Source: Lunularia cruciata
Taxonomy: Eukaryota; Streptophyta; Marchantiopsida; Lunulariales; Lunulariaceae
Direction: 5' to 3'
NCBI GenBank assembly: GCA_948567375.1
Contig: OX419761.1
Span: 48,398,243 to 48,462,242, forward strand
Length of the DNA: 64,000 nt
Part shown: positions 4,279-64,000 of the stretch, piece after piece
How positions within the stretch are numbered: position 1 is the stretch's first letter
Layout: each line of letters starts with the position of its first letter
The notes under the pieces: generated by a model
The model's database searches: none
What the model saw: the letters and a program-made list of their open reading frames with translations, nothing else
What the model was told of the DNA's origin: nothing
Program-made: the position numbers and the translations under genes

Positions 4279-4462
4279 TCGACATTGAATTAAAAAAGGA
4301 AAAACCAAAACGTAGTTGGAATTAACACTAACGAAATTTGACGTTGTTGGAGATTCACGAACAACAAAACTCGACATTGAATTAAAAAAGGAAAAACCAA
4401 AACGTAGTTGGAATTAACACTAACGAAATTTGACGTTGTTGGAGATTCACGAACAACAAAAC
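4279..4462. repeat. Perfect 92-bp tandem duplication
   Basis: Two identical 92-bp units are directly adjacent, 4279-4370 and 4371-4462, each beginning TCGACATTGAAT and ending ACAACAAAAC. No mismatch is visible, implying a recent local duplication or a collapsed/expanded assembly. The unit has no open frame of note. Confidence 0.95.
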
Positions 4463-6179
4463 TAAAAGTTCACCCCATGAATTTTGTTTTACTAGAGAAT
4501 TTCAAACATCCGGCCGCCAACCCATCCATCGGGTATAAACGACGCCACGTTCTCATTACATCTCGAGAGTTACTTCTAGTTTTTCACCCGTTTAAAGTAT
4601 AGTCCTTCTATAACATCGTTGCGCGGAATAATTGATTGCCCGAGACAGGAATTCAAATCTGGATCTGAGTTTGCGAAGAGAAACCTGATACTCTGATTTG
4701 AAAAGAAGAATGTTAACATAAACATCCAAAACTACGGAGTTAATCTTTGTTCAGAGATTCCAGAAAAACGATCCATCTGGATTTCCACACGTATGAACAT
4801 CGACCAACACAAACCTACATCAAGAAACCCATCCAAAGTCAAACACGCACAGTTGTAGTGGCCACAGGGATTTCGAAGTAACCAGCAACTCTATTTCCCA
4901 GCATTGGGATATGAAATCGTCGGGAGAGTCGTGTAAAAGTCCTTAAAGGACTCTATAATGGATATGTAAGTCAAAGAGAAGAAGGCCGACGCGTGTGAAA
5001 ACAAGAATGATGGGAAGACCCCGTCAAGCCGTAGAGGAAAAGACATTGGAGGTAAAATGGGGCTAAACCCCCATAGAATCGTAAGTCAAAGAGGAAAGTT
5101 AAAACTAAGCTTCTGAAACTGCAGTTGAAAGTCAGACTACTGTAGATATCGGTTCGTGTTGTCAGTTAAACTTTAGTTTATTACTCTAGATTCGTCGTGA
5201 CTGCAATGTCTTTATAGGGTGCTTACGAAAATCAAGCCACTGAGGAACCAACTTCTACGTGTCTTGTACCAGTTGCTTATGCCCACTTTTACAGTCTGAT
5301 TTTCCTGATATTCTCTCTGGGAAAATAGTTCATTGTCGTCTTCTTCTGGAGTTTCTGTCTGCTGAGACCGTTCTGCCATTAATGAATAAGTCCAGTTATC
5401 CTACGCGGTCGCCAATTTCTGTGAATAATTCCTGAAGGATAACCTTGTTTGAGATATTCTCGGAGCGTATACTTATATTACTCTATGGGTGTCAGGCAGG
5501 TCGTGCATAATGTCATCCGTTCGCATTGAGCGAAGATTTATAAGTGAAATTTATCTGATTTGGATACAATTCATTGACTTGAAATGACGAGCAATGCTGC
5601 CAGCTGGATATAAATAAGGAAAAGGCTCGAAAGGTCTTGACCTACGAAATGATAGTCCAATTATTCCTCACAATTTAACCAAGGATGGATAGCCAAGTGT
5701 TGAGAGGTGTCAATAATTGTTGCTCGTATACACCATGTGCATAAAGTCAGGCTGTATGTTCATCAATGTTTCTTCAGGACTTCAACAAGGAAACGGCTAC
5801 GCAAAAAGATAATGAGAAAGATGAAAAGACCATCAAGCAGTATAAGGATAAAACGTAGGCACTAAATGGGGCTAAGCCTCGTTAGAATAGAATGAGAAAT
5901 CTGTCCTACGATATCTAGGAGATCGGAACTATCATATGGATCTACATCTCAATTATAATATTGAAGTGGTATCAAGGTAAGAATGTGTAAACAACGTTAG
6001 AGCTGATTTTTTTCTTTCAGACAGTAGGGGATTTCAAATCAGCTTTTTTTCAGTAAAGAAATGTAGATTTTAGGCTGAAATTCTAGAATCTATAAACTTT
6101 ATATGGGAAACGAAACTCGTGACTCGTGAAAATCTACTGATTATGCGGATTATGGACATTGGGTAATGTTTATGAAAGC
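4463..6179. other. Intergenic sequence with dispersed repeat D1 copies
   Basis: No gene is supported. Three members of repeat D1 lie here: 4981-5083 (+), a short minus-strand piece at 5399-5413, and a more diverged copy at 5789-5890 (+). A sequence at 5966-5975 resembles the start of an initiator-tRNA-Met primer binding site (TGGTATCA), so an old LTR fragment may end just before it; I could not find a partner LTR. Confidence 0.4.
4981..5083 (+). repeat. Dispersed repeat D1, copy near 5.0 kb
   Basis: This copy shares with 7351-7452 an ordered set of blocks: a GGC-GAC-like start, then GATGGGAAGACCCC, TCAAGCC, GGTAAAATGGGGCTA and CCCCATAGAATCGTA. Part of it (GGGGCTAAACCCCC) forms a short hairpin. 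A related minus-strand fragment is at 3397-3430. The family is unrecognised; it could be a fragment of an LTR or a small non-autonomous element. Confidence 0.55.
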
Positions 6180-13427: not shown

Positions 13428-14725
13428 AATGATCAAGGAAACAAGGAATCCCAATAGGAGATTTTGAGCCGCCTATTGGGAGCTTCATTAGTTCCAATGG
13501 GATTGAAGGCTTGACCTATGCAAGTTTGTTTCACTTGCAAGGTATCATATCTAATTGGGGTTATAGGATTTTGGTTGATTTTGGAAGTTCAAAGAATTGC
13601 ATGTCTATGCAAGTAGTGAAATAATTGGGTATTCCTATCAAGCCAATGATTGGAAGTAGATTGATGATGGTGGATAGTAGAAAGGGTTCTGCATTCTACA
13701 CCTCACATTCTATTACTTTTAAGATTGGGACGTAGTATTTGGAGTGTATAAGGTTTGTAGTGGCACCTCTACACTATGATGTCATTTTAGGACTGCCTTG
13801 GCTTGAATGTCATAAGGTTCAATTTGATTGGACCCGAAGACAACTTCAAGTATAACACCACGGTAGGAATTTCTAATTAGGTTGTCTGGCACCTCTGAGT
13901 AAGACACCTAAGAATAGTCAGTCCTAAGATGGGAAGTTTGTTGAGAAGGTAGCCATAGAGCATACCTTGAGGAGAGAGGAGTCCCAAGATGGGAAATTTG
14001 CTAAGAAGGCAACTATGGAGTAAGTTTTGAAGAGAAATGAGTCCTTAGATGGGAAGTTTGTTAGTGAAATAGCCATAGAGTAAGCTTTGGAGGAAGATAA
14101 GTCTATTTTTGTGGTGTGGATCAAGCCAATTGCACAAGGACAATCTAAGGAGAGCCAAAAGCCTCATCAAGCAATAGTTGATTAGATAGTTCCAAAGTTT
14201 GTGGATGTGTTTCCGGATGATCTATTGAAGGGATTACCTTCCTATCGTGGTATGCCCTTCAAGATTGAGTTATTGCCAAGGAGTACTCTAGTGAGTAGAC
14301 CAATCTATTGACTCTCACTAAAGGAGTTGTAGGAGTTGTGAACAACACTTACGGAGTTTTTGGAGAAGTATCTCATACAACATAGTACCTCTCCTTGGGG
14401 AGCACCAGTACTATTTGCTCCAAAGAAGGATGGAGGACTTTGTTTCTGTATTGATTATTGTGGGCTCAATAAGCAAACTGTGAAGAATGCATATCTCTTG
14501 CGTTGGATTGATGACTTGCTTGATCATTTGAGTAGAGCAAGTTGGACTTTGTAGTGGCTATTGGCAAATCCTCATTGGTAGGGAAGATGTGCAAAAGATG
14601 GCCTTTTGCACAAGGTATGGGCATTTTGAGTGGAGAGTTCTACCTTTCGGGTTCACTAATGCTCCAACAGTCTTCATGGATCAGATGCATTGGTGTCTTC
14701 AAGACCTATTCTTCAACCGTATGAT
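13428..14725 (+). pseudogene. Protease and truncated reverse transcriptase of chromovirus 1
   Basis: Protease is recognised near 13565-13800: ILVDFGSSKNC occupies the place of the usual DSG active-site loop (Ser replaced by Phe), and DVILGLPWL follows. RT begins near 14190 with FPDDL, then [29 protein letters not shown], and after a frame change YGHFEWRVLPFG and TNAP. Immediately afterwards, near 14705, the sequence jumps to the start of RNase H (VVDFGASNFAIGAY). The YxDD catalytic motif and thumb are therefore deleted, so RT is inactive. Confidence 0.8.
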
Positions 14726-16420
14726 CCTCAACTACCCTATGTGGTTGATTTTGGTGCTTCTAACTTTGCAATTGGAGCCTATTGCAACAAGAATTCCTAG
14801 ATGGACTACATCCCATTGTCTTTGTGTCTCACCAACTCAATACGGCTGAAAGAAACTACTCTGCTCAAGATCAAGAACAACTTGCAATGGTATATGCCAC
14901 CAAGGTATGGAGGTATTACCTCTTGGAAAAACAAGTGATCATGCAAACTAATCACAAACCATTGTTGTAGACCTTACACTTGGAACACATGAAGAGCCAC
15001 CATCATCAATGGGAGGAACAAATCCAATTGTTTGACATCAAACTTGAGTACAAACCAGGTTGGTTCCACATCATCCCTGATGCTTTATCATGACAACTTG
15101 ATTTGAAGTCTATTCCTCTCATCATAGTGGCAATTACAACGGTGTCAATTGACTCCAAGGTCCAAAACAAGTTTCAATGAGCTCTACAACAAGATCCCTT
15201 CTTCCAAATGATACATGGTCACCTTACAACATGCAATAAGAAGTACAACACCTTCTCCATCAAGGGAGGCCTTCTATTCCATGAGCACCGCATCTATGTT
15301 CTAGCCAAAGGTGATCTTTGACTTGTGTGCCTTCAAGAAGCCCATGATTTATCCATAGCGGGTCACATGGATGTGGACAAGACCTTGGTACCTCCCAATG
15401 CCAATGGTGGTGGTGCAACATGACACGAGATGTTTGAGAATTTGTCCAATCATGTGAGAGCTACCAATGCAACAAGGCCAGCAACCAAAAGCCGAGTGGA
15501 CTCCTTCAACCACTTGCCATTCCATCCACTTGATGGGAGCATGTGAGCTTGGATCTCATCACATCCTTACCCAAGACAAAGCAAGGACACACAACAATCA
15601 TGGTGTTTGTGGATAAGCTTAGTAAGCAAATCCACTTAGCTTCAACCTGTGATATCATGGATGCTCCAACCTTAGCGCAAATATACTTTGACAATATATT
15701 CAAGCATCATGGGTTCCCATGTGTACTCATCTCCAACCGTGATCCTTGATTTACCAAGAAGTTTTGGCAAGCACTTTCTAGATACATGGCACCAAGCTTG
15801 CTTTGTCCACGGCCTATCATCATCAAATTGATGCACAAACCAAACGTGCAAATTGTACATTGGAAGATATGTTGCATACCTTTGTCAATGTTCACCATAT
15901 CAATTGGGATGAATGTCTTGTAGTTGTAGAATTTATCTACAACAATTCCAAATAGATAAGCACCGGATTTTCTCTTTTCTTTCTCAATTTTGGCCAAGAT
16001 CCGCTTGTTCTAAATTCTCTTCTTGCTCCCCTTCCATCTCAGGTTCCTCATACTTTAACATTCTTGAACGCTATATCCCAATATCTCTAACAAGCCAAAT
16101 CTCACCTCCTTGTTGCTCAAAAATCATCAAAAACAATATACAAACCACCATAGTCATGATTTCACCTTTGAAGTCAATGATAAAGTCATGTTATCCTCTA
16201 GTAACCTCCCTCTCTTCCTTGATACCCAAGTTTGTAAACTTGCTCCTAATTGGATAGGACCCTTTGATGTCACCCAAATTGTCTCTCATGTTGCTTATCA
16301 ACTTGACTTGCCTTATCATATGCGTATCCATCGTGTCTTTCATGTTTCCAAGTTGAAACCCTTTGTTCCTAACCCGTTTTCCTTTTCCTTTCGAGTCCAA
16401 CCTCCCCCTCCTCTTGTCCT
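14726..16420 (+). pseudogene. RNase H and integrase of chromovirus 1
   Basis: RNase H shows the YSAQDQEQLAMVYA and HKPLL segments near 14860-14970. Integrase follows with an HX3-4H-like start (AGHMDVDKT near 15360) and a core SLDLITSLPKTKQGH from 15546. The second catalytic position reads SNRDP where the family has S-D-R-D, and the glutamate position in the AYH...QTxR block (near 15800-15850) is lysine. Both are single G-to-A changes. The C-terminal GPF module (NWIGPFDV, VFHVSKLKPF) at about 16240-16365 is well preserved. Confidence 0.82.
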
Positions 16421-22653: not shown

Positions 22654-23280
22654 TTGAAAAATGTGGTCAATGAGTTCCAAGATCTCTTTTTGGATGAATT
22701 ACTTACAAGTTTACCACCAAAAAGGAGAGTAGATCATAAAATTGAGATACATCTTGGGAAGACATCTCCTTGTAAGACCCCATATCAACTATCACCTCAA
22801 GAGTTGGAGGAGTGTAAGGCTCAAATTGATGATATGTTGCAAAAGGAGTTTATCCAACCCAACGTATCACCATATGGGGCTCTTGTATTGTTTGTGAAGA
22901 AGAAGGATGGAACAATGCATATGTGCATTCACTATCAAGGGTTGAATCAACAAACAGTGAAGAACAAATATCCATTACCTCTCATGGATGACTTGTTTAA
23001 TCAACTCAATGGTGCAAGGCACTTCACCAAACTGGATTTGCAGAGCAATTATAACCAAATATGGATTGCAAAAGAAGACATATACAAAATAACATTTCAA
23101 ACAAGTTATGGTCACTTTGAGTACTTGATGATGCCATTTGGCATCACCAATGCTCTAGCCACTTTCATGAGTTTGATGAATGACATATTTCATCCGTTCT
23201 TGGATAAATCTATTATCATTTTTCTTGATGATATCTTAGTCTATAGTAGGATGCTAATAGAGCACAAGCAACATCTGTGA
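22654..23280 (+). pseudogene. Reverse transcriptase of chromovirus 2
   Basis: This 208-codon frame is the best-preserved polymerase in the window. It holds [30 protein letters not shown], the first catalytic Asp in [12 protein letters not shown] (family: LDLxSGYHQI), [12 protein letters not shown], and the catalytic FLDDILVYS box. It begins at TTG directly after a stop in the upstream frame, so it lacks its own start and would need the polyprotein. A stop at the end cuts it from the thumb and connection domains. Confidence 0.85.
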
Positions 23281-24230
23281 GAAGTCTTCTAGATTTTATG
23301 ACAAAATCAATTGTATGAAAAAATCAATTGTATGCCAAAATCTCAAAGTGTAAGTTTAGCAAATCTGAAGTAGACTACTTAGGGTATAGAGTAAGTTTGG
23401 AGGGTATCCAAGTGTTAACAGATAAAAAAGAGGTCATACAAAAATGGAGCGCTCCAAAAGATCAAACTCAACTCAAGAGTTTATTGGGATTGACGGGGTT
23501 TTATCATCAATTTGCCAAGGACTTCTCTAAGATCGTACAACCCCTAATAGCACTATTAGGCAAGGAGAAGAAGTGGATATGGCAAACCACACAAGAATTG
23601 GCCTTTCAAGAGTTGAAAGATGCATACTACATGCAACAATCTTGAAATGGTATGACCCAAAACGTCCAATCAAGATGGCTACAAATGCATCAAGTGTAGC
23701 AATAGAAGTAGTCCTACAACAATAATGGCAAGATGGATGGCACCCAATTGCATATTACTCTCATAAGTTGCTACCCATAGAATGCAACTATCACACCACT
23801 GAACTAGAAGAGCTAGCCATTGGCCTTGCAACCAAGCATTGGAAGGACTGTTTGGGTGAGAAGGCATTTGTGGTAAAGACAGACCACAAACCGCTAGTCT
23901 ACCTCAAGACACAAAAGGATCTTTCTCATCAATAGATTTGGTGGGCAAAATGGATACAACAATTCAACATGACAATCAGATATGTGGAAGGTAAGAAGCA
24001 AATTGCACATGCATTCACCCAAATGCCAATGGTAAAAAATTTGGTGGTGGAAATCAAGTTGAACCTTAAATTTTGGCCAAGGATTCTTGTTGCTACAAAA
24101 ATTGATCCACAAATTGTAGGTGCTCAATCATCCAAAGGCATCACAAGCACCCAAGGACTCATCTTCCATGATGATAGGTTGTGGACCCTAGATGATATGG
24201 ATCTAAGAACCACCATCCTAGCAATCATAT
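23281..24230 (+). pseudogene. RT thumb and RNase H of chromovirus 2
   Basis: The thumb/connection segment (23328-23645) reads CKFSKSEVDYLGYRVS, LKSLLGLTGFYHQFAKDFS and KKWIWQTTQELAFQELK. RNase H follows with MATNASSVAIEVVLQQ (first catalytic Asp replaced by Asn), YHTTELEELAIGLATKHW and TDHKPLVYLKT. The tail IRYVEGKKQIAHAF corresponds to the family's end of RNase H. Stops occur at 23643 and within RNase H. Confidence 0.82.
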
Positions 24231-25789
24231 CCCATGATTCTGCCATTGCAAGTCATGTTGGAATGGACAAGACCTTGGATGCAGTCATTACTATTGGCCC
24301 AAGATGAGCAATGATGTGATGGAAAATGTTTTATGAGCCGGTTTGTCTCTCACTCAAGATGAACCTCTGATGGTTATTATGGTAGCGCACCATGGATTAA
24401 GAAGGCAAGGAACCCTAACTCCATCATACTCCTTCAAGGCTAACATTCCAAGACTCAAGACATTGCTCACTAGAGAACTTAATGAGAGAGATAGTTGCAA
24501 ATGAAAGGATGATGAGTACCTCATCACCCCTTGTTATATACTTGTGAAATAGTTATGCACCAAAGTTACTAATTATCATAGTAACTCAAGTCAAAAAGTA
24601 AAAAGGAATATCCTTTCATATGGGCATATTCCACTAGCATGTGATCTTATCTTGATCCAACCACTAAGTCCAAGATTTTTTCACATGGGCTATCCTTGGA
24701 CTATAGAAAGAATCCAAAACAAAAGGCTTGCGGGCCCAAGAGTTCTCAACTCTTTCCTGAAAGCCAAACACCTAGGAATAATACCAAATCAACACACTAG
24801 AATCCAAAATAGTGGTGCTCATCTTTTCCACTTCCTCTAAAGTAAGGTCCCTTCTACCTTAGCTATGACTAACTCTAGCTAATCATGACTAATGCAGAAC
24901 CATTCTTTATCTCTATATAAATAATATCTCTCAAGTACTTGTAATACCAAGCTAAATATCACAATACCACACACATGCATAAATAGGCGTTACAATTTGG
25001 AGCTGAGCTGCCTACTTTGTCAACAAAATAAGGCTTCTAATCAAGCTCCCACATGACTCCTCCAACCTCTTCCCACTCTTACACAATGTTGGGAATAAGT
25101 AAGCATGGGTCTGGTTTGTGAATTGCCCAAGACCACCTTTAGATTTGATTCCATCATAGTCTTTGTCTAAAGACTCAGCAAAATGATTCATGTACGTCCT
25201 ATCACCAAGGATATGACTACTTTGCAACTAGTTCAACTGTACTTAGATGCAATCTTTCCCCATCATGGCTTGTCTTGAGTGCTCATCATAATTAGAGGTA
25301 CTCAATTCACTAGTTTATTTTGGAGAACACTCTTTGGGTTCTTCAAAACCAAATTGGCTATGTCCACAGCTTACCATCTATAGACTAATGGACAAATAGA
25401 GAGGGAAAATCACACTAATGAGGACATGCTTTGGGGCTTTATGTTGGATGAGCAAGAGAGTTGGGACCCCTCACTCCCATTGGATGCAACAATTTGGTGA
25501 ATGCCTCTACTCAAGTCACACCGTTCTTCCTCATGTATGGAGGGCATCCTTTCACACCTTCAAGCTTGATGAAGGTCTGTCCGATGGCTTTCAAGGTGGA
25601 CGTTATCAACACTTTTGTTACTAGAATCCAATAGGAGGTAGAGCATACCAAGCACATGTTATAGATTGCCCAAAATCAGCAGAAGTAGTTGGTAGATGCA
25701 CATCGCCAACACATGGAGTTCAATGTGGGAGATCAAGTCTTGCTGTCAACCACCAACCTCAAGTAAGTTGGTCCTCATAAGCTCAAACC
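24231..25789 (+). pseudogene. Integrase of chromovirus 2, split by a solo LTR
   Basis: The zinc-binding start is at 24231-24300 (HDSAIASHVGMDKTLDAV). After 24331 an unrelated LTR intervenes to 24994. The integrase resumes near 24999 with the CX2C part and NKASNQ-like sequence, then a core at 25100-25560. The first two catalytic acids are altered (SMG for SMD; IIRGTQF for SDRGTQF), while the glutamate in NGQIERE is kept. The downstream GPF module (IGPFSILCRIGVVAYHL) is visible near 25780-25850. Confidence 0.78.
24332..24994 (-). mobile_element. Solo LTR, family 3, inserted in the chromovirus 2 integrase
   Basis: The 663-bp segment has no coding content and is homologous, inverted, to 29678-30347. 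On the minus strand it starts TGTAACGCCTATTTATGC and ends GGCTCATA. The flanking tetramers GTTT (24328-24331) and ATTT (24995-24998) differ by one base, consistent with a 4-bp target duplication. Removing the segment restores continuity between the two halves of the integrase zinc domain, which proves it is an insertion. Confidence 0.85.
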
Positions 25790-28133: not shown

Positions 28134-29677
28134 CACAACCATGCCCGTAGTCCCGTTGCCTACAACTCATGTAAGACACATTTGTCCTAAACTTCAAGCA
28201 AGTGTAACTTCTTTTTTTAGAGCTCCATTTTCTATGATCTTGGTGTCTATGGAAAGCCCTTAATAAATGCTTTTAATGAAATAAGACACACCTTGTTTGC
28301 ATATCTATTTAAAAAAATATGGGTCCCAGTGTGAACTATCTTTTATTCACTCCCATAAATGGAATCTCATAATATGAAGATTTGGCCCATACTAACTCTT
28401 CAACATTCACTTAGTGCATTCTCATAATTAATCAGACTCCATACTTAACATTGGAGACAAGATTTATGCCTTGGAGGAAAATGCAAGGCAAGAAGGAGAT
28501 AATAGAGCAAAATCCTAAAAGAAGAGGAGAATCTCTAAAGATAATTCTTTGATGACACTAGTTATTATTGTTTTGTTGCAGGATTTGGCTAAACATAGTA
28601 AATAGTAGAGCAAGTCAATGGAAGCTAGAGAAAGATGCACAATGGCAAAAATAGAAGCTCAAAAGATTGCAAAGATGGAAAAGCACCAATACCTTGGTGA
28701 GGCAAAGAAGATTAAAGTTAAGGTGAGCAAATATTGAGAATAGAGAAATTGTAAAGTAGATAAACTACACATTAAGGAATGTGGAGAAAATTCAAATGCT
28801 TCTACTCTATGACTCTTGAACTAGCAAAGACAAGAAAGACTTTAGAAGAAATAAAGAGTATAATTACTACAATCTTTTAGATAGATTCCAAACAACCTTT
28901 TTATGGTAGTAGTTGTACTACTAAAAACAACCTTCTTATAGTAGCAATTTTACTACTATGGATCTTAAATTTCCAATGCCAAACTACACCATTAGAAATG
29001 ATGATAGAGAAAAGTATGATATGTAACCACATTTTCCGTATAAAGTGCTAGTGAATTGCTTCCTTTGTAATTCTATTAGGATCTTATTTATGAAATTTTT
29101 ATGTCATGAAAATAGTTCCTTATTTTCTTAGATGATATGATAGTGATGATGACTTGGATGATAATGATGTTGACTACCTTTATTAAAATAAGTTTTCTAT
29201 ATTCTTCTTTTGTATCTCATTGTAGTTTAGGAGGTTCATTCACCTATCTCAAAGGACAAAAATGAAATACAAGAGGCACAAGTGGGGGTCTTGTTTGGTT
29301 TTGAGCCCATGGTGTTTTGTTAGATGTTCTGCTTGAAAACACATTTCATGGATACAAGAACTCACATGGAGACATGATAGAGACCTTCAAAAACATGCTC
29401 AAATCTCATCCCTTAAAATAAATCACAGTTTATGTATTTGTTATATGGTATGCATGGTAAGCATGAAATTGTACACACCAAATACTACTCAACCATGGAA
29501 AACTTAGGAAAAAGAAAAATAATACTAAGGACAAGATACTATTAGAGAGTCACACTTTTTATAGTATCACTATACCAATGACTTACAATGAGTTTATGAG
29601 CAATGAGCAATGTTGCTCTGATGCATCCTTGAAGTGTCTATACAAGCATCAGTGTAAAAAGAAAGGACTATCTGGCC
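28134..29677. other. Unassigned sequence, no supported gene
   Basis: Lys/Glu-rich codon runs occur on the plus strand near 28440-28740, but no continuous frame or family is recognisable. A 30-40 bp unit (TAGTAGTTGTACTACTA-like) is imperfectly duplicated near 28900-28975. Confidence 0.4.
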
Positions 29678-30347
29678 TATAACACCTATTTGTGCATGTA
29701 TGTGGTATTGTGATATTTAGCTTGGTATTATAAATACTTGAGAGATATTATTTATCTGGAGATAAATAATGGTTCTACATTAGTCATGATTAGCTAAAGT
29801 TAGTCATAGCTAAGATAGTGGGGACCTTACTTTAGAGGAAGTGGAAAAGATGAGTACCATTATTTTGGATTCTAGTGTGTTGACTTGGTATTATTCCTAG
29901 GTGTTTGGCTTTGAGGAAAGAATTGAGAACTCTTGGGCCTGCAAGTCTTTTTGTTTTGGATTCTTCTATAGTCCAAGGATAGCCAATGTGAAGGAATCCT
30001 TGACTTAGTGGTTGGGTTAAGATAAAATCACACTTAGTGGAATATGCCCATGTGGATGGATATTCCTCTATACTTTTTGACTTTACTTGAGTTACTCCAA
30101 TAATTAGTAACTTTGGTGCATAATTATTTCACAAGTATATAAACAAGGGGTGAGGAGGTACTAATCATCCTTTCATTTGCAACTATCTCTCTCTCATTGA
30201 GTTCTGTAGTGAGCAATGTCTTGAGTCTTGGAGTGTTAGCCTTGGAGGAGTATGATGGCATTGGAGTTCATTGCCTTCTTAGTCCATGGTATGCTACCAT
30301 AATAGCCATTAGAGGTTCATCCTAAGTGAGAGACAAGTCGGCTCACA
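29678..30347 (+). mobile_element. Solo LTR, family 3, plus orientation
   Basis: The 670-bp segment is homologous to the reverse complement of 24332-24994 along its whole length. It begins TATAACACCTATTTGTGC (TG changed to TA) and ends GGCTCACA. It is flanked by a perfect 4-bp duplication GGCC (29674-29677, 30348-30351). TATATAAA at 30136-30143 is a likely core promoter. No internal coding region of this family is present in the window. Confidence 0.87.
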
Positions 30348-31244
30348 GGCCACATCCATGTCCTCTCCTAGGGATGTATAAGGGGATCCTAAAAACGCTT
30401 GGGTAAATTCTAGTATGGGTCAGCACTATAATCCCTAAGCCAACTTGCTATCTAATTTCTATCTAAAAATATAATATGTGCTCTCTCTCCTCTAAATCTA
30501 TCAAAAGGAGCTACCAAGAGGTCCAATGAGGAGGTACAGGATGTCCTAGGTGTATGTAGAGGATAAAAAATGGAAGATGCATAGCACCATGGGATGGTTC
30601 CTACAATATGGAAATAACACCACTATCAACTATTAATATATCACTAGTAGATAGATCCAATGATCTAAATAGGTTATAAGGTCTAACTATGAAACCTCTA
30701 TAAGCATCCATATACCAAAGCATCCCATAAGGCATTCTCTTTTGTGTACTCCATCAAGTAAAAACCACCATCTCATATGGACCAAAGTAGTTGCTCTACC
30801 TCCTTCATTGCAATACTAGTCCATATGATTACCTAAAAGTGTATCATACAATACTCCATAAACTCTTTAACTCCAAGTTGGACGATATAGTAAAAAGTAC
30901 TACTTACTCTATGGTAGCTCCATTTATACCCTAGCATTCAGTCACACCAAAGCAAGAAAAGAGGACATCTACTCTCCTTAATATCAGCTAGACAACCAAC
31001 AACTAGAACTATAATCTTTTTCCTTGCATCTACTACATAAAGGATGCAAGGGATGAACTCTCTAGATAAGCTCATCCTCTCTTGCAAATCAATAAGCCTA
31101 GAAATATCATCTCTCAAAGTTATCCTCCATCCTAAAGCCACTAAACTCCTCAAGAGTTCATCTAAAACAAAGTGAGGGTGAGACATCATCTAGAACTCAT
31201 GATCTCCATGAAACAATATCCATATCACTTATCTGCACATAAGG
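30348..31244. other. Unassigned sequence between solo LTRs
   Basis: Short minus-strand frames (for example 30938-31189) have no recognisable domain. The sequence is probably old repeat DNA. Confidence 0.4.
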
Positions 31245-52927: not shown

Positions 52928-55756
52928 TTATGGCTTGTACACCGCGACCACTGGGAGAAAGACGGAACTGAGCCACAAAATTGCATGTCTTTCTTGTGCA
53001 GTTGATAAGTACTTGACTTCTGACATTCCAGTTCTATCCTCTAGCACTTCCACAGGCTCTCCACTAATATCATACTTTATGACCAATGGTTTAGAGCCAC
53101 CACGACCGAAGTCATCAAAAGTTTTAGACATTACTTGGCCAAGATGTATAAGTCTGGATATGCACTTATATGTGGAGGAAAGGTAGTGTATTGTAGTCCG
53201 ACGACCATGGAGTGCAACCCAGAAATGTTTCCCATCCTCTGTGGACCTTATGTTGTCACCATAACCTGGCATCTGAGCAAATTCTTCAAGCGTACCGGTT
53301 TGTGACCCTCTCAGCCAGTATTTTAAAATTCTGCAAGATGTTAAAGCAATTTCACATCACGAAGGTCAGAGATGATATCAGTAGTCTCAAGAGACAATTC
53401 AGCTGCTCTTGTAGTGGTCAGGAAAAGGAACCAGAAAAGATCAGATGGTATCCATTTGGACCTGTAAGGAGGGTCTCTGTTTACGAGAAAGAAGGAAACG
53501 TGTGTAGGAACAGTGAGTAGATATGCTGAGGAATCGCGTAACTTTTAAGGCACAGTTTGCATGAATTTTGCTAAAACGAGAGAAGTTGGGGGGAAACCTG
53601 TTCGCAGAGGTAGAAACTATGAGTAAAAATGAACCATCTTTCGCCAAAGCTACACCATTTGGGTACTTGAACTGTTCCAACAGAACCGTGGTAGTTCCTG
53701 TCTCAGGCTCATATTTAAGGACTCTCCCGCTCGTATCTTGCTCTTTCACCACAAGCTCATGTGCTCTGCAATGCCACCACGCGATATTAGCCCAGTGTTC
53801 TTCAGGACCATGTTTACACTCTCTCAACTCCTCGCATATCGATGGTTTGGAATTTGGAAATGTCAAACTTATCCGTCTACTGAACTGAAGCACTCCAGTG
53901 GTTATTTCTCCTATTTATTTTGGATTTACTGCACATTAGATTGCAGGTATTTCCATGTCTTTAAACGTTAGAAAACTGAGTGGAAGTGTCAGATATGTAT
54001 CCTTACTTTCGTTGATGCCGAAGGCTGCTAACAGTGAAATACACCACTCCGTCTTCACCAATTTCCAAGTCGTTAGTGAATTTATGGACTTGACCATTAG
54101 ACTGATCACACAATACTTTTGCCCGTCCCCCCTCTCTGCCAACGATGGCGAGCCCGAAGTAAGCGTCTGCAATATACAGAGAACCTGAAGCATCAAACTT
54201 CAATCCCAAGGGCCGCCCGCAGACATGCTCCAATGTGGGGTACTCATATCCCCTCAGTTTGAAGTCACAGAGCTCGGACTTCCTGCAGACAGATTTGAAG
54301 TCAATGGAATATAATATCTACAGCTGAGGAAGAACGGTTACAGGTCTACTGTAGTTCATCTGTAGTTCATTGCTTAAAGTGGAGAGTAACACCATTGATC
54401 AGACTTGATTTTGGATTTTGCCAGAGTTTCTGTATTGGGTGTAGCTAGATGATAAAGTTAGAGCAGTGGGATGAAAGTGAATGAATTTACCGATGTCCAG
54501 TCTCTAACAGGACGCGAACGCGAATTGACAGTGTTTTACGAAACGATGCTTCAGAAAAGGGAGATATCGTCAGTTCCATAAATAAGGATAAGTTGCTAGT
54601 CGAATTATGAACTGCACATGCTAAGTTCTGTTAATGATATAGGTAAGTGGTAATCGTTGACATCGCCCATTATGTCGGAATGAGAAAACGCAACACAACG
54701 TTAGCTTACGGATGATAGTAAGAACTCAGAACTCACATGATACAACTAGTTTTCGTCAAGCTACTTCAGAAGGGTATAACGTTACTCTGATTCTGTCAAG
54801 AGGCAAAGACAAATGTTTTCTCCGTTGTTTTGCCCGACGCTGAAACCAGGGTATGCAGGTTAAAGTCATGCAACAGACTTTACAGTTTCAGGGCCTGAGA
54901 TCTTGCCATTTCAGTCTTTCAAACTTTAACTTAAACGTAACGAGATTTTCAAGGGTGTATGTAGAGTTATGTCTGCTATATTAACAAGACTCAGACACTC
55001 GTATCCAAGAGTGAGAAGATGATGGAAATGACCAGTAAGGAGATACGACAGCGAAAGTCTCCCAACTTCCGTCCAACTCTTTCCAACGAATCACTCTCCC
55101 GTCAGCTACTCCCGTATAGATTCGACCCTGCGATCAGTGCACGGTCGGAGGTTCATATCTAAGACCACATTAGATTCTTCGCTCCCTGATGCACAAACCT
55201 TCCCTCTGAGCATTACGAACTCGTTTTACTTCCAAATACGTGCACTTCTTGTGATTCTTCTGATAAACATCTACATTCAGATGAATCCAACTATCACTTA
55301 ATTCGATACTTGGGCAACGGACAAAGATTGTACCTGTTCATCCCAAGCCAAACTTTCGGGACCTGGAACTTCAATATGGAAGGCCAAAGAGGTGTTGAGA
55401 AGCTTGCTGGCAGGATCAGCTGGCCAGGCATTCACATCTGGCACAGGGAGCAAGCATTGATATGCATGCCCTTTGCATCCCTCGGGATGGAAGTCCATGA
55501 CTGCCTCCAGAATCCCAAATGGATCGCACGCCGTATAAATAGCAATCAGGATTACTCCTAAAGCGAAGAGTGACGACGTATGAGCCCATAATGTTGTTGT
55601 TGCTGTTATTTCTCTGCCTTTGATGGAGCTTCTTGATACCCATGGCGATGTCCGGATGGTTCTAATCTTCGTCCATTCATCTCTCTGCGTCTCAGGAGTA
55701 TCTTCCTCCTGATCAGACAGAGGTTCAGAACTTGCATCGACCATCGCATCTCCCAT
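52928..55756 (-). CDS. Strictosidine-synthase-like (APMAP-type) membrane protein, five exons
   Basis: Strictosidine-synthase-like proteins are six-bladed beta-propellers; most plant members lack strictosidine synthase activity and are thought to act as hydrolases or in wall and lipid processes. Proposed exons: 55756-55334, 55127-55033, 54282-54007, 53765-53598 and 53330-52928, all with GT..AG introns and continuous frame (1365 nt, 454 aa). Residues 1-55 are cytosolic and charged, and about 56-77 form a membrane anchor (type II). Propeller signatures follow in order: GPESLAWDEQ, GRIYTGVADGRVIRW, CGRPLGLKFD, LYIADAYFGL, FTNDLEIGEDGVVYF, SGRVLKYEPETG, FKYPNGVALAKDGSFLL, ILKYWLRGSQTGTLEEF, PGYGDNIR, HFWVALHG and FLPVVAVYKP. 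The ATG at 55756 is the first Met. An alternative acceptor at 53879/53880 would add 38 residues in frame, but the one at 53765 restores the usual spacing. Confidence 0.9.
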
Positions 55757-57560: not shown

Positions 57561-60014
57561 ACTATCATTATTCTTGTGCTAACCATGGCTACACCTCCCC
57601 ATGTGTGCCTGCCTAGAGCGGCTTGAGATACACCATACTCGGTGTGTCATTGACGCTTTACCTCGCAAGGGATAAAGACCCATGTGGGAAGGATGCACAA
57701 GGACTATGATTGGACCACTTGAGATGCCCACGTGAGACAAATGATCACATCGATAGCAGTGACACTCGGGATTACGCATGCTTCTTTTATCCCTTCATTA
57801 ATCATTTTAGGGATGTCGATCAAGTCGTGTGAATTGTTATTCTCTCAAACGGGTTGCATTTTGGTGTTATTTGAGACTAGTTTTCCATGTCCAATTATAT
57901 TCCATAGGCTACCTTGCACATTCCATGATGAGGCTTGATAGGCTTTTTGCCTACCACTTGATCGTCTGGTGTCGGATCCCTTGGACGAGTTAGCATGGTT
58001 CCTAGTCCTCGCACTCCCTCAATGTTGTCTTTGTTATGCTAGAGGGGGACATGCGGGGCATAAAGAGGTGGTTGCTAGATTTTTCAATTCCGAGCGGGGA
58101 ATTGGGCAGCCCTTTAGGAGGAGTCTATTAGGGCTAAACGTTTTAGGAGACAAGTGTTGTCACATGATACAGTAGAGTACACTTGATTACGACGATTGTC
58201 ACGCCATTTGTAGTGCTATGTCTAGATGCTCGGACACTAGAGTTCCAGTGATAGTAGTTAGAGTTATTTCAGCAGTTTCTCATAGACTACTTTCCGATGG
58301 TCAGATTTTGTGTTTGGGGTACTGACTTCACAGTGGAGCCCACTGTCACTTTGCACCGTCGAGTGTGCCGTCAGCGGGACCGTTAGGGTTTCCGTGCTAG
58401 CTTGAGTCCATGGGGTATAGTTTCGAAGTGAGCTCCAGAGAGCTCACTTCACTGATGTTGAGCCTTCGAGTTCCTGGCTATGGTGGACAGAGGCCGGCGA
58501 GCATCACTTGGATTCTCTATGCTTGAGTGGGTGTGGCTTGACTGTAATCAGTGTCAGTTGTTGGCAGTTTATAGAGTGACAGATCAAGTACTAATCTGAG
58601 TTGAGTTGAGTTGAGAGTGGTAAGCAATCTGATTACATCAGAGAAGTGAAGTCAGGGGGAAATCGGGTGCAAGAACTTTGAGTGTTGGTGGTATCTCCAA
58701 GCTTGGTGGATCGTTGGTAGCTCAATTCAAGTTCAGTATTTCCCTAGTGTGCAGAAGCTCGTTCACGTGATGCAGATTTGGCAGTTAGACGGACGGTGTG
58801 CGGAAGCACTGGCCAAATTTTGAGCAAAGAAGGAGCAAATTTTGAGCAATGGTTGTGATTTTGAGCTCAAGAGGTGAAGGCAAGACCAATTTGGTGCGAG
58901 ATGGGCTCAAAAAGTCAAATTGAAGGTGGAGTTGGGAAGCTCTTCTCATGAATTTCTGATTTGGAAAAACCCGTGTTGTCAAGTTGGCTTGAGTGGAAAG
59001 TTAGCGGGGGATTTGGTAGGCAGCCATCTTTAGGGTTTATGTCAGATTTTACATCAGATTTGGTTGGGATTTACGTCAGATCTTGGCCAAATTTGGAGGA
59101 GTTTTTGTTGTTTGGCCAGATTTGGAGGAGTTTTGCTAGTTTAGAGGACATTCGCGGATTTTGAGAAGTTTTGCCAATTTTGGAGGAGGTTCAAAGTGGC
59201 AAGAAGAAAGGCCTCATTTGGCGTTTAGAGGCTTCGAGGCATAGGGCTGTGGGCTATGAGAGGCTACAAAGGCCTAGAAGAGCCAGCAAGTCAGCTTGCT
59301 GGCGTGAGGCTAGCTAGTTTAGAGTAGATCTTGGTCATTGGTTGGCAAAATCTGCCTTTCCTGCTAGATTGTGCGTAATAGGGTTTGACCCCAAAATCTC
59401 TTGTTCTTAGACTGGTGCCCTAGCCAATTGGTCCACCCTCACTTGTTGTCCTAGTGACTGTGCCATTGTTATCTATACACATGTAGCTTTGGCTAGGAGA
59501 GGCAGTTTGATCCCATTCTTGGTGATCCTAGTAGCTTAGGACTTAGATACAAACTTCTCTTATGCCAAATGCCAAATGCCAAATGGTGGTAGAGTCAGTC
59601 CCGTGTTGTGTTATGAGATGGAGGGTTTTTGTTTAGATTTCTTGTGATTGGATCCACTCCATTCTCTACTTCCTGTTTGTGTACCATGTTTGTGTGAGGT
59701 GCCCTGACTTTTGAGCGTTGGTGCTCTGGTGTGCTCTTGGTGGTGAGGCTGGAATGATGACCAGTCAGACTACTTTTGTTTCTCTCCGGTGAGGCAGGAA
59801 GTGATGACTTGCAGACCGTGAGAGTGCGTGTTATGATGGCAGGTTACAGGTTGTCCTTTCCCCTAGTGTAGTTATCTTGGTTAGAGTTACATTAGTGGGT
59901 GGCGCTTAGTTGGTATTGGCATGTGGTGGTATTGGCACTTGGTGGAGAACTTGTGGTTGCCACTCGCGGTTGCAGTTGGTGGTTTGGGTTTGTTGGTGTG
60001 GTTACTTTGTCACA
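57561..60014. other. Probable LTR and leader of the methyltransferase-bearing element
   Basis: No coding region is supported. The sequence lies directly upstream of gag, so it should contain the 5' LTR and primer site, but the 3' LTR is outside the window and boundaries cannot be fixed. One candidate LTR start is TGTCACGCC at 58197. A possible end is TTAGAGTTACA near 59891, followed at 59911 by TGGTATTGGC, which shares only its first six bases with the tRNA-Met site. Short repeats occur at 58808-58845 and 59083-59190 (TTGGCCAxATTTGGAGGAG), and CCAAATG occurs three times near 59567. Confidence 0.4.
59372..59440 (-). other. tRNA-like sequence, degenerate
   Basis: The minus strand reads GGACCAATTGGCTAGGGCACC, then GTCTAAGAAC and GATTTTGGGGTCAAACCC. 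The first block resembles a tRNA D-arm (A box), the last a T-arm (B box, GGTTCGANNCC), at normal spacing, with a class I variable region. The anticodon stem does not pair well, so this is not a functional tRNA. It could be a tRNA pseudogene or the head of a SINE. Confidence 0.35.
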
Positions 60015-61425
60015 ATGGAGTTCTTTGGAGATTCCAGAGGAGTTAGCCCTACAGTACGCAGTGGGTTTACTCGGAGTGGTGCTCGATATCAGCTTGTATC
60101 TCAGGTCCCAGTAAGAGAGGATATTGACTCTGAGTTGGAGTTTGACACAGGAGCTGATTCAATTGAGAGTGCACTTGGTGTGTCCACACCGTTGTTGTGG
60201 GACATGGACAAGATTTATGGGGCCTATAAAGGCCCTAGGTGTTACTCTGGTACAGTGGGTACCATTGAGTTGGATGACTTCATCCAGGAGTTTGATAGTT
60301 GGTGTGATCTGCAATAGATGCGGAACCCGACTTTGTTCATATCCTTCATGGCATGGAAGGGGTTGTTTCAGCACTTGGAGGGTCCACCAATGGACGACTA
60401 CCATGAGTTCAAGAGAGCTCATTTGGAGGAGATTGAGTTATGGAGACAATATTGGTCTCCACACTATATCTCCATCACTTCAGGCTCGGTGGCCAGGAGT
60501 AGATCAGCTGTACCTACAAGTTCTAGCTCGAGTAGTGTGGGTGGAGCTAGTGGAGGTGCACTAGCTGGAGATAGTGCTACTACGAGTGGAGGTACCGTTG
60601 CAGGAGGTGGTGTGGTACCGGGGTTTAACCCCATGGTGGAGTTCTTCCTATGTTTGAGGCAAAACTACCAGGGAGTACAAACTGACAAGCTAAGGAGCTT
60701 GCAGGATTTCCAGCGGAAGGCTCGAGAGAGCCTATGCAAGGCATACACTCGCATGAGGCGTCTGATCAGTTTCACTCAGGGAGTTATTGAGGCCCAGGCA
60801 GTCCAGTTTTGGTATGGGATACTAGACAAAGTTACGACGTAGAGTTTGTGATGCTATGTTGTTATAGGCTACTTTGCCTACTTAGGCAGTGGTCTTTAGT
60901 TTGGCTGAGCATAGTGAGCTCAACATGGTGGAGAAGAGAGTGGTGACATCTGGATTTGGTATTGAGACCTCATCCACGGCTGTGACTTCTTCTAGAGTGC
61001 AGCAGAGTGCACCACGCCCAGTTGGTTTTTGAGGATAGGATGGATAGCCTAGATCCTATGGAGCGAGTGGAGGGCCTAGTGGAGTTAGACCCTTACCCTC
61101 ATTTTCGGGTCAGCAGCAACCAGTGAGTAGTGGGGTTGCTTGTTGGACTTGTGGTGGACCTCACCATCGCAAAGAGTGTACTCAGGGCAGTGGACCTGAT
61201 ACTTTGGGTGCATTACAGCCATCATAGAGGTAGTGTGAGCATTGCCACAGATTTGGTCACACTAGTGATCGGTGTTTGGACCTACACCTAGAGTTATGGA
61301 GTGGTAGGGCTACTATGGCAGGTAGTAGAGGAGCTCCAGTTCATGGAAGATAAGGTGGTAGAGGTGGTGGTAGAGGATCCACACCTAGTAGGGGTGCAAT
61401 ACCTACCCTTACTTCTAACACAACT
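60015..61425 (+). pseudogene. gag of the methyltransferase element, with two zinc knuckles
   Basis: The first ATG of the frame (60015) opens MEFFGDSRG. The frame runs to 60842 with a single internal TAG at 60315-60317. It includes a gag-type helical region (IELDDFIQEFDSWCDLQ; LEEIELWRQYW), a Ser/Gly/Ala-rich linker, and a second helical region (ESLCKAYTRMRRLI). A one-base shift near 60840 moves coding to the next frame. There two knuckles appear: CWTCGGPHHRKEC (61141-61179) and CEHCHRFGHTSDRC (61234-61275); the second fits CX2CX4HX4C exactly. Several stops interrupt the knuckle region. Confidence 0.8.
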
Positions 61426-62440
61426 ATGGCTACTTGGATTGATCAATTGGAGCAGAGATTGGCTAGTATGGCTATTGCTCAGAGGAGATCAGATTTGGGT
61501 GTTGAGGCTTCTACCTCATATGCTAGTGATAGAGATGCTTTGGACTTCATGTGCGGAGCAGCACAAGTGGATGCATCTACAGCAATGACTAGGAGTGCAG
61601 TATGTGCTCTAGAGCCTAGAGGAGCATCCGTGGAGTTGGACCCACAGAGAGGAGAGGTTGGGAGACAGGTCAGACTTCCCCAGTCTTTCATGCTATCTGA
61701 GGCATTGCAGGCAACATCCATGGTTCCTAGACATCCCAATGTAGGTGTGGTAGGTGGTGATGGAGTACATGATGGACTACCTGCTAGTCAGCCACCTACT
61801 ACTACACAGACTGAGTCTAGTATGATGTTGGGGGCGGCTCAACTGATTATGCGGCATCCTTTGTTTTTGGCCAATGATATGTTTACATTGGGAGTTCACC
61901 TAGCCCCAATATTCCGGTTGGCTGCCATGTTGTGTGAGAGTAGGGATGGTGCAGTTCCTACTACTAGAGTAGAGGTGGTTGGTAGTGGAGCTGACTTGGT
62001 TGAGGAGCATGGGATCCGTTCAGCGACCAGTGGTTTATGGCAGGCAGTAGCGGCTAGACTGGAGGAGTTGCCAGCTAGACTGGCCTTTGAGAGAGCACGG
62101 TTCACACCTGGTGTTGTCCTATTGGATAACCAGAGGGGGATTTTTTGTTTGGTGGGACCTTTAGGGAAGGTCTATACACCACAGAGAGTCTTGTTAGACT
62201 CTGGTGCGCAGCCCCTTATGTTGGGAAAGGCTGTAGTTGTCGGTCTGGAGTTACGGAAGACCGATGTGGAGAGGTGTCTATTTCAGATCCAAACATCTCT
62301 AGGTGGTGGTTTGACACAGTACATCACACGTGGGGAGCTTGTTGTCCAGGTTCAGCCTGGTCATCCGATTGATAGCTCGGTGGTGAGCTCAAGCTATTGC
62401 GACAATAGCTGAGTCATATGATGTACTAGTTGGGGGAGTA
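61426..62440 (+). pseudogene. Aspartic protease region of the methyltransferase element
   Basis: A 328-codon frame (61426-62412), the longest in the window, begins after the knuckles. Its first two thirds have no clear domain (low-complexity, Gly/Val/Thr-rich). At 62176-62300 the retropepsin core is evident: TPQRVLLDSGAQPLMLGK, with the catalytic D-S-G triplet intact at 62197-62205. After a frame change near 62390 the typical end of the domain continues (AIATIAESYDVLVGGVVLYP). Retropepsins cleave the polyprotein during particle maturation. Confidence 0.82.
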
Positions 62441-63860
62441 GTGTTATACCCCATGGGTTTTAGCATTGACTATTGGGAGGAGACAGCCTCTTATAGACCT
62501 GGTTGGCAGTCTGGTGAGGGACGGGTATGTTGCCTACCAGTACGCTTCAGTAGTGGTAGTCTTGGCTCACTACAGTCCGAGACCATGGCAGCATCAATTT
62601 TAGCTTTCAATGGTGCAGTTACTTGGCCTAGTGACTTGTTGGAGGGGAACGCCCATGCAGAGGATACTCCAGTACCAGAGGAGATCACTCGGCTTTGGAG
62701 TACGAGTGGGATTGTTCCATCCACCTTGGATGTTCCATTGTGTAGTTCAGAGGAGGCATTGCAGCAGCATGCAGATCAATTGGTCCAGCACGCTTGGAGT
62801 GGAGCCTTCGTACCATCAAGAGATGAGTGTGAGGATGAGCCTCCAGAGGCGATTGCTTTGACACCTCTAGATACCACACTCATTGCTTGGCAGTATCCAG
62901 TAGAGGAGATATGCCTATTGGAGTTGTTTGGTGGGATCAGCACCGGACTAGTTGCGGTGTTACATGCGGGTATACGAGTACAAAGGTACTTGTATGTAGA
63001 GAGAGATGAGACTGCTAGACGAGTCTCTCTATATCATGTGGCACACTTGGCCTATCACTATCCAAAGTTATTATAGATATTAGCAGTCAAAGGTTACCAA
63101 AAGGCCCTACCATGAGACATTTCCTAACTGGGGGCGCATGACCTAGAGAGACATGGGCCTATTCACTTAGTGATTTCTGGATGGCCATGTCAAGGACATA
63201 CATGTGCTGGTAGAGGATTAGGTCTTCAAGATCCTTGTTCTGGTGTGTTTTGGGAGATGTTACGGATACTACGACATCTCCAAGTTCATCAGTCCGTTTC
63301 TCCAGCTTACCTTTTGGAGAACGTTCCTTTGATGGGTGATTCTTGCACTAGAGTGGTGGCGAGTACACATCATGTCCATTCTTGGATGGGACCTGCTGTA
63401 TTGTTAGATGCAGCTAGAGTGGGATCACAAGCTCATCGTCTCTGTCTTTGGTGGATGAACCTCTTACCAAAGAGGTTCTACAGTGCGCTTATGATGGGAT
63501 TCAACGACTTGACCACATCTTTGTTGATGATATCTTGGATGTTGGGCGTCAGTCTTAGACAATGGTAGTGGCCAATAGGTCACCTATGGCAGTGGTAAAC
63601 CTAGTTGGACAACCTAGAGCCGCATTTCCCACACTCATGAGTTTCCCAAGCTCTCATGCTTTTTGAGAAGGAGGACCTGGACTTGTTTGGGACTCACAAT
63701 TATAGCAGTTGGTGGAGCCCAACGCTGATGAGAGAGAGCGGGTGATGGGTTTTTGCACCGGTATTACCGCTGTTCCAGTAGTGTCAGAGGCATCCAGGCG
63801 TCAGGTGTTAGGTCAGGCTACGGACCTGAATTGTTTGACCTGGATTGTGAGCCTTGGCTT
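62441..63860 (+). pseudogene. C5 cytosine methyltransferase, DNMT3-like, encoded by the retrotransposon
   Basis: C5 methyltransferases transfer a methyl group from S-adenosylmethionine to cytosine in DNA. Visible motifs in order: I, LLELFGGISTGL (about 62912-62947), the AdoMet-binding loop; II, RYLYVERDETARR; IV, GWPCQGH with the catalytic Cys (PCQ at 63185-63193); VI, YLLENVP; VIII, VGSQAHRLCLWW; then, after a frameshift near 63460 and a variable region, ERERVMGF and SRRQVLGQA, matching the C-terminal motif X region. The order is canonical, so it is not a DRM (permuted). Spacing between IV, VI and VIII and the C-terminus fit DNMT3 best, although DNMT3 usually has PCN rather than PCQ. An N-terminal linker (62500-62880) joins it to protease. 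Stops at 63074 and two more before 63170 show it is inactive here. Confidence 0.88.
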
Positions 63861-63864
63861 GGTA

Positions 63865-63898
63865 AAGCGCATCCTACGCTGCTGCGTAGGATGCGCTT
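63865..63898. repeat. Perfect 15-bp hairpin directly after the methyltransferase
   Basis: AAGCGCATCCTACGC (63865-63879) is exactly complementary to GCGTAGGATGCGCTT (63884-63898), with a TGCT loop. The stem is more GC-rich than the surroundings. It follows the last methyltransferase motif and precedes the region where the next coding domain should begin. Open possibilities are an RNA structure at a domain junction (for example stimulating recoding), a protein-binding site, or chance. Confidence 0.85.
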
Positions 63899-64000
63899 GA
63901 TAGGCATCACCACTCGGACACTTGTGAGCCCTGTGCTTATCAAGACGATTCAGGCACATGCTGGGGGCGATGGACTGAGAGGACATGGTATTCTTGGGAC
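63899..64000 (+). other. Continuation of the element beyond the methyltransferase
   Basis: The last 100 bases remain open in one frame (for example TLVSPVLIKTIQAHAGGDG), possibly the start of a linker or the reverse transcriptase region, but too short to identify. The element runs off the window. Confidence 0.35.

Follow-up and report, generated by a model that had tools for sequence, protein, structure and literature searches.

Methylation of DNA is the chief defense against retrotransposons. Cytosine methyltransferases of the DNMT3 class carried by retrotransposons were described by de Mendoza et al. (2018) in Gypsy elements of Klebsormidium and in dinoflagellates, the published Klebsormidium element combining DIRS-like repeats with Gypsy-like domains (PMC5890265), and a 2025 paper citing that work reports retrotransposon DNMT3s in streptophytes and dinoflagellates (PMC12344493). 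Ty3/Gypsy bursts have been reported for the liverwort Lunularia cruciata (PMC9985172); we do not claim that the family described here belongs to them. Here we analyzed a 64,000-nucleotide stretch of the L. cruciata genome (positions 48398243-48462242 of contig 11 in a 566-Mb assembly; the window) and the stretch directly past its end (L009). At its right end, the window contains a full-length, decayed Ty3-type retrotransposon insertion that runs from window position 58197 to L009 position 4851 (10,655 bp), starts with TGTCACG, ends in ...AACA, and has CGAT on either flank. This copy is one old, inactive member of a many-copy Ty3-type retrotransposon with a DNMT3-class domain in its polyprotein. 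What we add is the mapping of its parts and the tracing, favored by our trees, of the element DNMT lineage known from algae into land plants, where a family keeping its own DNMT reverses the usual roles of methylation and retrotransposon.

The better-kept copies have the layout A1, gag, CCHC knuckles, protease, DNMT, UAG, reverse transcriptase (RT), ribonuclease H (RNase H), DDE integrase, PHD finger, B1, A2, and B2, with A and B being repeats. The first open reading frame (ORF1; 1428 residues in copy c2) encodes gag, CCHC, protease, and DNMT in one open frame with no introns, and the second (ORF2; 1037 residues in copy c6) lies in the same frame immediately after the TAG and encodes RT, RNase H, an H2C2-rve integrase, and a C-terminal PHD finger. 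Pfam matches of the element pieces included RVT_1 (3.3e-31), RT_RNaseH (4.1e-35), H2C2 (2.6e-18), and rve (1.2e-12), and the integrase spacing was D-x59-D-x34-E. Two of the marks of elements of the KnitGypsy-Dnmt3 type were thus found, namely Ty3/Gypsy RT, RNase H, and DDE integrase, and a DNMT3-class enzyme within an intronless polyprotein. The DNMT motifs follow the linear order I-IV-VI-VIII-X, and DNMT3A/B were nearest by sequence profile and by fold comparison, in agreement with the DNMT3-like assignment in an earlier reading made from the letters of the window (the sequence-only reading). Membership of the DNMT1/CMT/MET1 class was rejected, with no such name among the 55 PDB matches of the DNMT profile; none stood among the best 50 rows of the fold list either, which by itself excludes nothing. 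No DUF3444 was detected at E up to 0.1 in six ORF1/ORF2 pieces of c1, c2, and c6, and the Pfam matches included no tyrosine recombinase family, ORF2 carrying a DDE integrase. No chromodomain was found at the integrase end, the PHD finger standing in its place. The nearest solved relatives of this finger (best 60 of 88) include CHD4, KMT2D, KDM5B, PHF21A, AIRE, and UHRF1; PHD fingers of these types recognize H3 tails, in many cases with K4 unmethylated.

The genome was scanned with the PF00145 profile, giving 2161 candidates of which 123 were scored. In 114 of these the match began at profile position 44-50, the span of the element family (counted from the listing, few being checked), and the window copy was not among the 123. 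Seventeen scored places were fetched, L001-L004 and L005-L008 by rank and c1-c9 for their long open frames. None of the family's domains was found in the four top-scoring places (L001-L004), which may be host genes. Protease, DNMT, and RT occurred together in 13 of the 17 (for L005-L008 only the start of RT lies within the stretch), with integrase and PHD finger also present in c1-c9 and no adjacent gag in c9. The DNMT was carried by all 13 fetched element copies and by both of the extra copies met by chance in fetched stretches (L019, L026).

The repeats and flanks place the DNMT inside the element. The left end has a lone A1 (449 bp), and the right end consists of B1 (107 bp), 2 bases, A2 (449 bp), and B2 (107 bp). 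The full A-coding-B-A-B pattern was present in seven of ten copies (c1, c3-c7 and, decayed, the window copy); in c2, A1 is represented by a displaced 77-bp piece, c8 has no A1, and c9 has B matches only. The element termini are TGTC...GACA. Target duplications were scored, and A1 and A2 compared, in seven copies (c2 and c8, with no complete A1, and c9, with B only, were left out), and identical 4-bp flanks were seen in six: ACTC (c1), CATA (c3), TTTA (c4), GAGG (c6), ACTT (c7), and CGAT (window copy). The flanks of c5 showed no 4-bp target duplication. The enzyme had been called element-encoded, and this was borne out by its position inside a TGTC...ACA-ended insertion with a 4-bp target duplication in the window copy and five others. 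The B1-A2 joint reads GACA-GC-TGTC in six of the nine copies examined and GACA-GT-TGTC in c4, and it differs in c5 and the window copy; it looks like both element ends juxtaposed with two bases between them. The ends and duplications fit insertion, by a DDE integrase, of DNA that regains its ends from an internal template. Conventional identical long terminal repeats (LTRs) were considered and none were found, the left end having only A1 and the right end B1-A2-B2, and the bases following A1 show no obvious TGG start of a primer binding site. Split repeats together with a DDE integrase raise the question of how the element restores its ends.

The features of the window copy are the following (window coordinates unless L009 is named).
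58193..58196, no strand: left copy of the target-site duplication, CGAT (right copy at L009 4852-4855)
58197..58635, + strand: A1, element left end (TGTCACG...), 90.6% identity to A of copy c6
60060..61107, + strand: gag, two pieces in different frames, from tblastn against a better-kept copy (91% and 83% identity)
61141-61179 and 61234-61275, + strand: two CCHC-type zinc knuckles, read from the sequence
62008..62860, + strand: protease region with linker and the active site LLDSGA (62191-62208), from sequence reading and tblastn
62876..63870, + strand: DNMT3-class cytosine methyltransferase domain, from profile, PDB, and tblastn matches, with stops and frameshifts
63871..64000, + strand: start of the DNMT-RT linker, continuing into L009
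L009 203-205, 386-2336, 2697-3296, and 3852-4007: in-frame TAG CAGCCA, RT pieces, integrase, and PHD finger, respectively
L009 4178-4285, about 4287-4745, and 4745-4851: B1, A2, and B2, right end of the element

The gag, CCHC knuckles, LLDSGA protease, and DNMT motifs that the sequence-only reading had listed in order on the + strand are all seen in the window, and its methyltransferase range of 62441..63860 does hold the DNMT, although it also takes in the protease-DNMT linker. That protease and DNMT share a frame is true of c2, with its single open frame, but not of the window copy, where the two are put out of frame by a 2-base gap near 62384. The Pfam Retrotrans_gag match of the window gag was weak (E 0.18, below its cut-off). 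The piece at 63128-63565 matched PF00145 above the cut-off (E 4.7e-6) and human DNMT3A in the PDB (E 1.8e-4), and tblastn with a better-kept copy spanned the domain in two parts, 62876-63511 (84% identity) and 63463-63870 (86% identity). Its landmarks are the catalytic Cys codon at 63188-63190, motif VI ENV from 63317, and motif VIII from 63431, where the second Arg is Cys; relative to c2 there are six stops and 14 inserted bases. The next 4 kb past the window end contain RT, RNase H, integrase, and PHD finger, the RT-RNase H region being interrupted by a 686-bp repeat of another family (L009 1363-2048).

The border between DNMT and RT reads TAG CAR YYA at 15 of 15 places (CAGCCA in 13 copies, CAGCTA in L017, and CAGTCA in the second L026 copy), which we take to be a tobacco-mosaic-type readthrough context. 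Among relatives with gag and DNMT and no RT, 13 of 17 proteins end 76-129 residues beyond the DNMT and the other four earlier, and ORF2 proteins of several relatives begin 42-113 residues ahead of RT; judged from these proteins, the DNMT/RT split may extend beyond this species. The A1/A2 differences per 449 sites were 3 (c6), 6 (c3), 6 (c4), 9 (c1), and 12 (c7), and the older copies had 45 per 447 (c5) and 36 per 439 plus 20 gap columns (window copy). Some insertions are recent, and the window insertion is old. Pooled pairwise ratios of nonsynonymous to synonymous substitution (dN/dS), decayed copies included, were 0.37 for DNMT (78 pairs, 13 copies), 0.41 for protease (66 pairs, 12 copies), and 0.31 for RT (45 pairs, 10 copies), with rows of at least 30% gaps dropped. 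Single close pairs exceed 1 (e.g., c1/c5, 1.78 in DNMT), as post-insertion decay would give. Taken together, the DNMT shows a degree of conservation similar to that of protease and RT. The C/T differences between A1 and A2, per C site, were 15/188 in CG, 10/265 in CHG, and 7/679 in CHH for the five younger copies, and 24/66, 23/106, and 21/268, respectively, for c5 and the window copy. This CG/CHG pattern is as expected of methylated plant repeats, and the inserted copies are probably methylated.

The explanation that we consider rather probable as a whole is that a built-in DNMT3-class enzyme of the Gag-protease polyprotein premethylates the element's complementary DNA (cDNA), with integration guided by the PHD finger. 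Readthrough of the UAG would give much Gag-protease-DNMT and little RT-integrase-PHD, so that the methyltransferase would be made at the Gag level and packed into particles. Once packed, the DNMT would methylate the newly made cDNA, chiefly at CG. The PHD finger, of the H3-tail-reading kind, would carry the integrase, and the cDNA would be inserted by way of its TGTC/GACA ends, the B1-A2 joint (GACA-GC-TGTC) serving as the template that restores both ends in the next round. A new copy would arrive methylated, be kept silent by host maintenance enzymes, and so be less harmful, and it may evade whatever treats unmethylated DNA as foreign. For their own elements, de Mendoza et al. considered both lower host harm and escape from defense (PMC5890265). 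The steps rank in support from the Gag-level DNMT by way of the UAG, through its packing and its action on cDNA, to the PHD-guided integrase. More tentatively, and with greater doubt than belief, we extend this to an ancient streptophyte lineage with a matched writer (DNMT3 at Gag dose) and reader (PHD on the integrase), split repeats, and a DDE integrase, which would deposit premethylated, self-silencing copies into chosen chromatin and whose bursts may have helped to build a large liverwort genome.

Several results weigh against premethylation by the element's own enzyme. Five long relatives (P0050, P0051, P0053, P0058, and P0063) lack a DNMT at maximum sensitivity, and the DNMT is therefore dispensable and can be lost. 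The fetched copies were selected by DNMT match, nine of them also by long open frames, and such a sample gives no fraction of copies lacking the DNMT. Copies with the same gag-protease and no methyltransferase would have spoken against an element-encoded enzyme; none occurred among the fetched element copies of this DNMT-selected sample, and the 2.5 kb adjoining a divergent gag remnant in L022 (71% identity) contain no DNMT. The UAG is not universal, since P0014, P0025, P0045, P0046, and other relatives are continuous from DNMT to RT, and where ORF1 ends in relatives was taken from protein records, some of them gene models, rather than from stop codons. The mutation footprint does not show which enzyme acted, and its CHG part points to host CMT. 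Finally, no methylation could be detected in yeast with the Klebsormidium DNMT, a result its authors call inconclusive (PMC5890265).

The yeast result also lends itself to a different account, in which the enzyme is retained for a purpose other than marking its own cDNA: it could methylate RNA, serve as a domain that binds DNA or builds particles, or act in trans on host DNA. A location on the Gag side suits a particle role, and the motif IV Pro is replaced by Glu in 29 of 84 rows of relatives. However, the catalytic Cys is kept in 81 of 84, the motif VI Glu in 85 of 87, and the motif VIII Arg pair in 82 of at least 86 and 82 of 85, which counts against a purely structural role because such a role would not need them, and the closest fold and profile are those of the DNA enzymes DNMT3A/B. 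We consider this account rather unlikely.

The history of the family was examined through its relatives. Those of ORF2 came from Calypogeia fissa, Riccia sorocarpa, Marchantia polymorpha, Closterium, Klebsormidium nitens, Tetrabaena (weak DNMT), and many environmental sources, with one (P0002, 68%) from a transcriptome assembly; the closest named relatives are liverwort elements, in keeping with the land-plant host that had been proposed. Relatives of the DNMT were found in Marchantia (up to 74% identity), Sphagnum fallax (50%), and Closterium, the Marchantia relatives including Mp_4g09160, Mp_8g17980 (P0122), and Mp_6g11220. P0182 shows only a DNMT, and P0122 carries gag and protease despite its methyltransferase name. 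The DNMT search profile was built from 10 of 65 DNMT rows. The DNMT tree comprised the query and 64 of the 74 DNMT-bearing proteins (among 166) with spans above 230 residues and scores above 150, Sphagnum P0141 falling outside; the RT tree comprised the query and 123 proteins with spans above 330, and P0167-P0183 were in neither. Both trees were built quickly, contain several long branches, and have no host-DNMT outgroup. Among proteins with RT, DNMT, and integrase, the DNMT lies ahead of RT in 17 and between RT and integrase in 25, and this position changes once on the DNMT tree (65 rows) and once on the RT tree (124 rows). Closterium and the liverworts form one DNMT group (support 92), with the window family adjoining the Marchantia set, and the Klebsormidium RT-integrase proteins, one of which (P0062) carries a PHD finger, group with liverworts and Closterium on the RT tree (support 84). 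We read this as one old lineage whose DNMT would have moved once and which would have descended with the streptophytes.

A rival history is the capture of a plant DNMT3 by a bryophyte retrotransposon independently of the charophyte elements. In its favor, the trees contain neither the Klebsormidium element DNMT nor host DNMT3; protein searches, each scoring 8000 candidates, returned no K. nitens element DNMT and no protein recognizable as a host DNMT. Against such a capture stand the single position change per tree, the two groupings just given, and the split repeats with Gypsy domains published for Klebsormidium (PMC5890265), and we regard it as very improbable. Extension of the charophyte lineage into land plants, one of the two alternatives named in the sequence-only reading, is the one that these comparisons favor, with the K. 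nitens element DNMT outside them. That a host DNMT gene or pseudogene lies beside the retrotransposon by chance, as the broken window DNMT out of frame with the protease might suggest, is ruled out by the target duplications outside the DNMT, the recurrence of one order in 13 of 13 separately located element copies, and the one open frame of c2.

In viral contigs, ORF2 had no matches, and the DNMT profile found 84 stretches encoding a distant relative, of which 80 were kept (24-40% identity). Contigs L032-L053 of the viral collection hold distant DNMT relatives at 25-33% identity. Element polyproteins sit in public sets as ordinary proteins and could inflate host DNMT3 counts; Mp_8g17980 (P0122), for example, is an element polyprotein listed under a DNA (cytosine-5) methyltransferase name. 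Marchantia, a tractable plant with close relatives of the element, makes the question of the element DNMT testable.

Elsewhere in the window, further copies of the ~690-bp stray repeat lie at 24334-24994 and 29677-30348 (also in L021 and L027), and other Ty3-like RT/integrase remnants, at 28-40% identity to the DNMT-bearing family, lie at 22747-25320 and 14541-15060. A palindrome at the DNMT-RT linker (63862-63898; AAGCGCATCCTACGC...GCGTAGGATGCGCTT) is a local inverted duplication of the window copy, as its left arm is missing from the better-kept copy c2. Exon-like pieces at 52931-54317 (- strand) resemble, as read by eye, a strictosidine-synthase-like protein.

Among the literature matches listed, we found no published DNMT3 retrotransposon of liverworts, mosses, or Marchantia and no published PHD finger or split repeats in Gypsy-type elements; subscription literature lay mostly outside these matches, and neither result is proof of absence. 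The available parts of PMC9516144, PMC10952607, PMC11244446, PMC12477816, and PMC13182070 report no such element, and the words PHD, direct repeat, and frameshift are absent from the available main text of PMC5890265, its figure apart. Plant host DNMT3 with DUF3444 (Yaari et al. 2019, PMC6453930) shares the DNMT3-class catalytic domain without the DRM rearrangement, whereas the domain here has no DUF3444, is intronless, and lies within a retrotransposon. Chromoviruses likewise have a histone-reading domain at the integrase C terminus, but here it is a PHD finger rather than a chromodomain, a DNMT is added, and split repeats replace LTRs. DIRS/PAT-like elements have split direct repeats in common with this family, which uses a DDE integrase with 4-bp target duplications and not a tyrosine recombinase. 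SymbioDIRS-Dnmt3 of dinoflagellates is similar in its retrotransposon DNMT3, its A-B-A-B repeats, and a Pol domain order that varies between families (PMC5890265), yet its tyrosine recombinase, in contrast to the DDE integrase here, places it in an unrelated retrotransposon class. KnitGypsy-Dnmt3 shares the Ty3/Gypsy pol domains, the intronless DNMT3-class domain in a polyprotein, and the A-coding-B-A-B repeats; its published purifying selection (Ka/Ks, the corresponding substitution ratio, below 0.2 for the DNMT) compares with the pooled 0.37 here, decayed copies included. The C-terminal PHD finger and the 4-bp target duplications are described here, and the L. cruciata family differs from KnitGypsy-Dnmt3 in its land-plant host and in the UAG that separates DNMT from RT.
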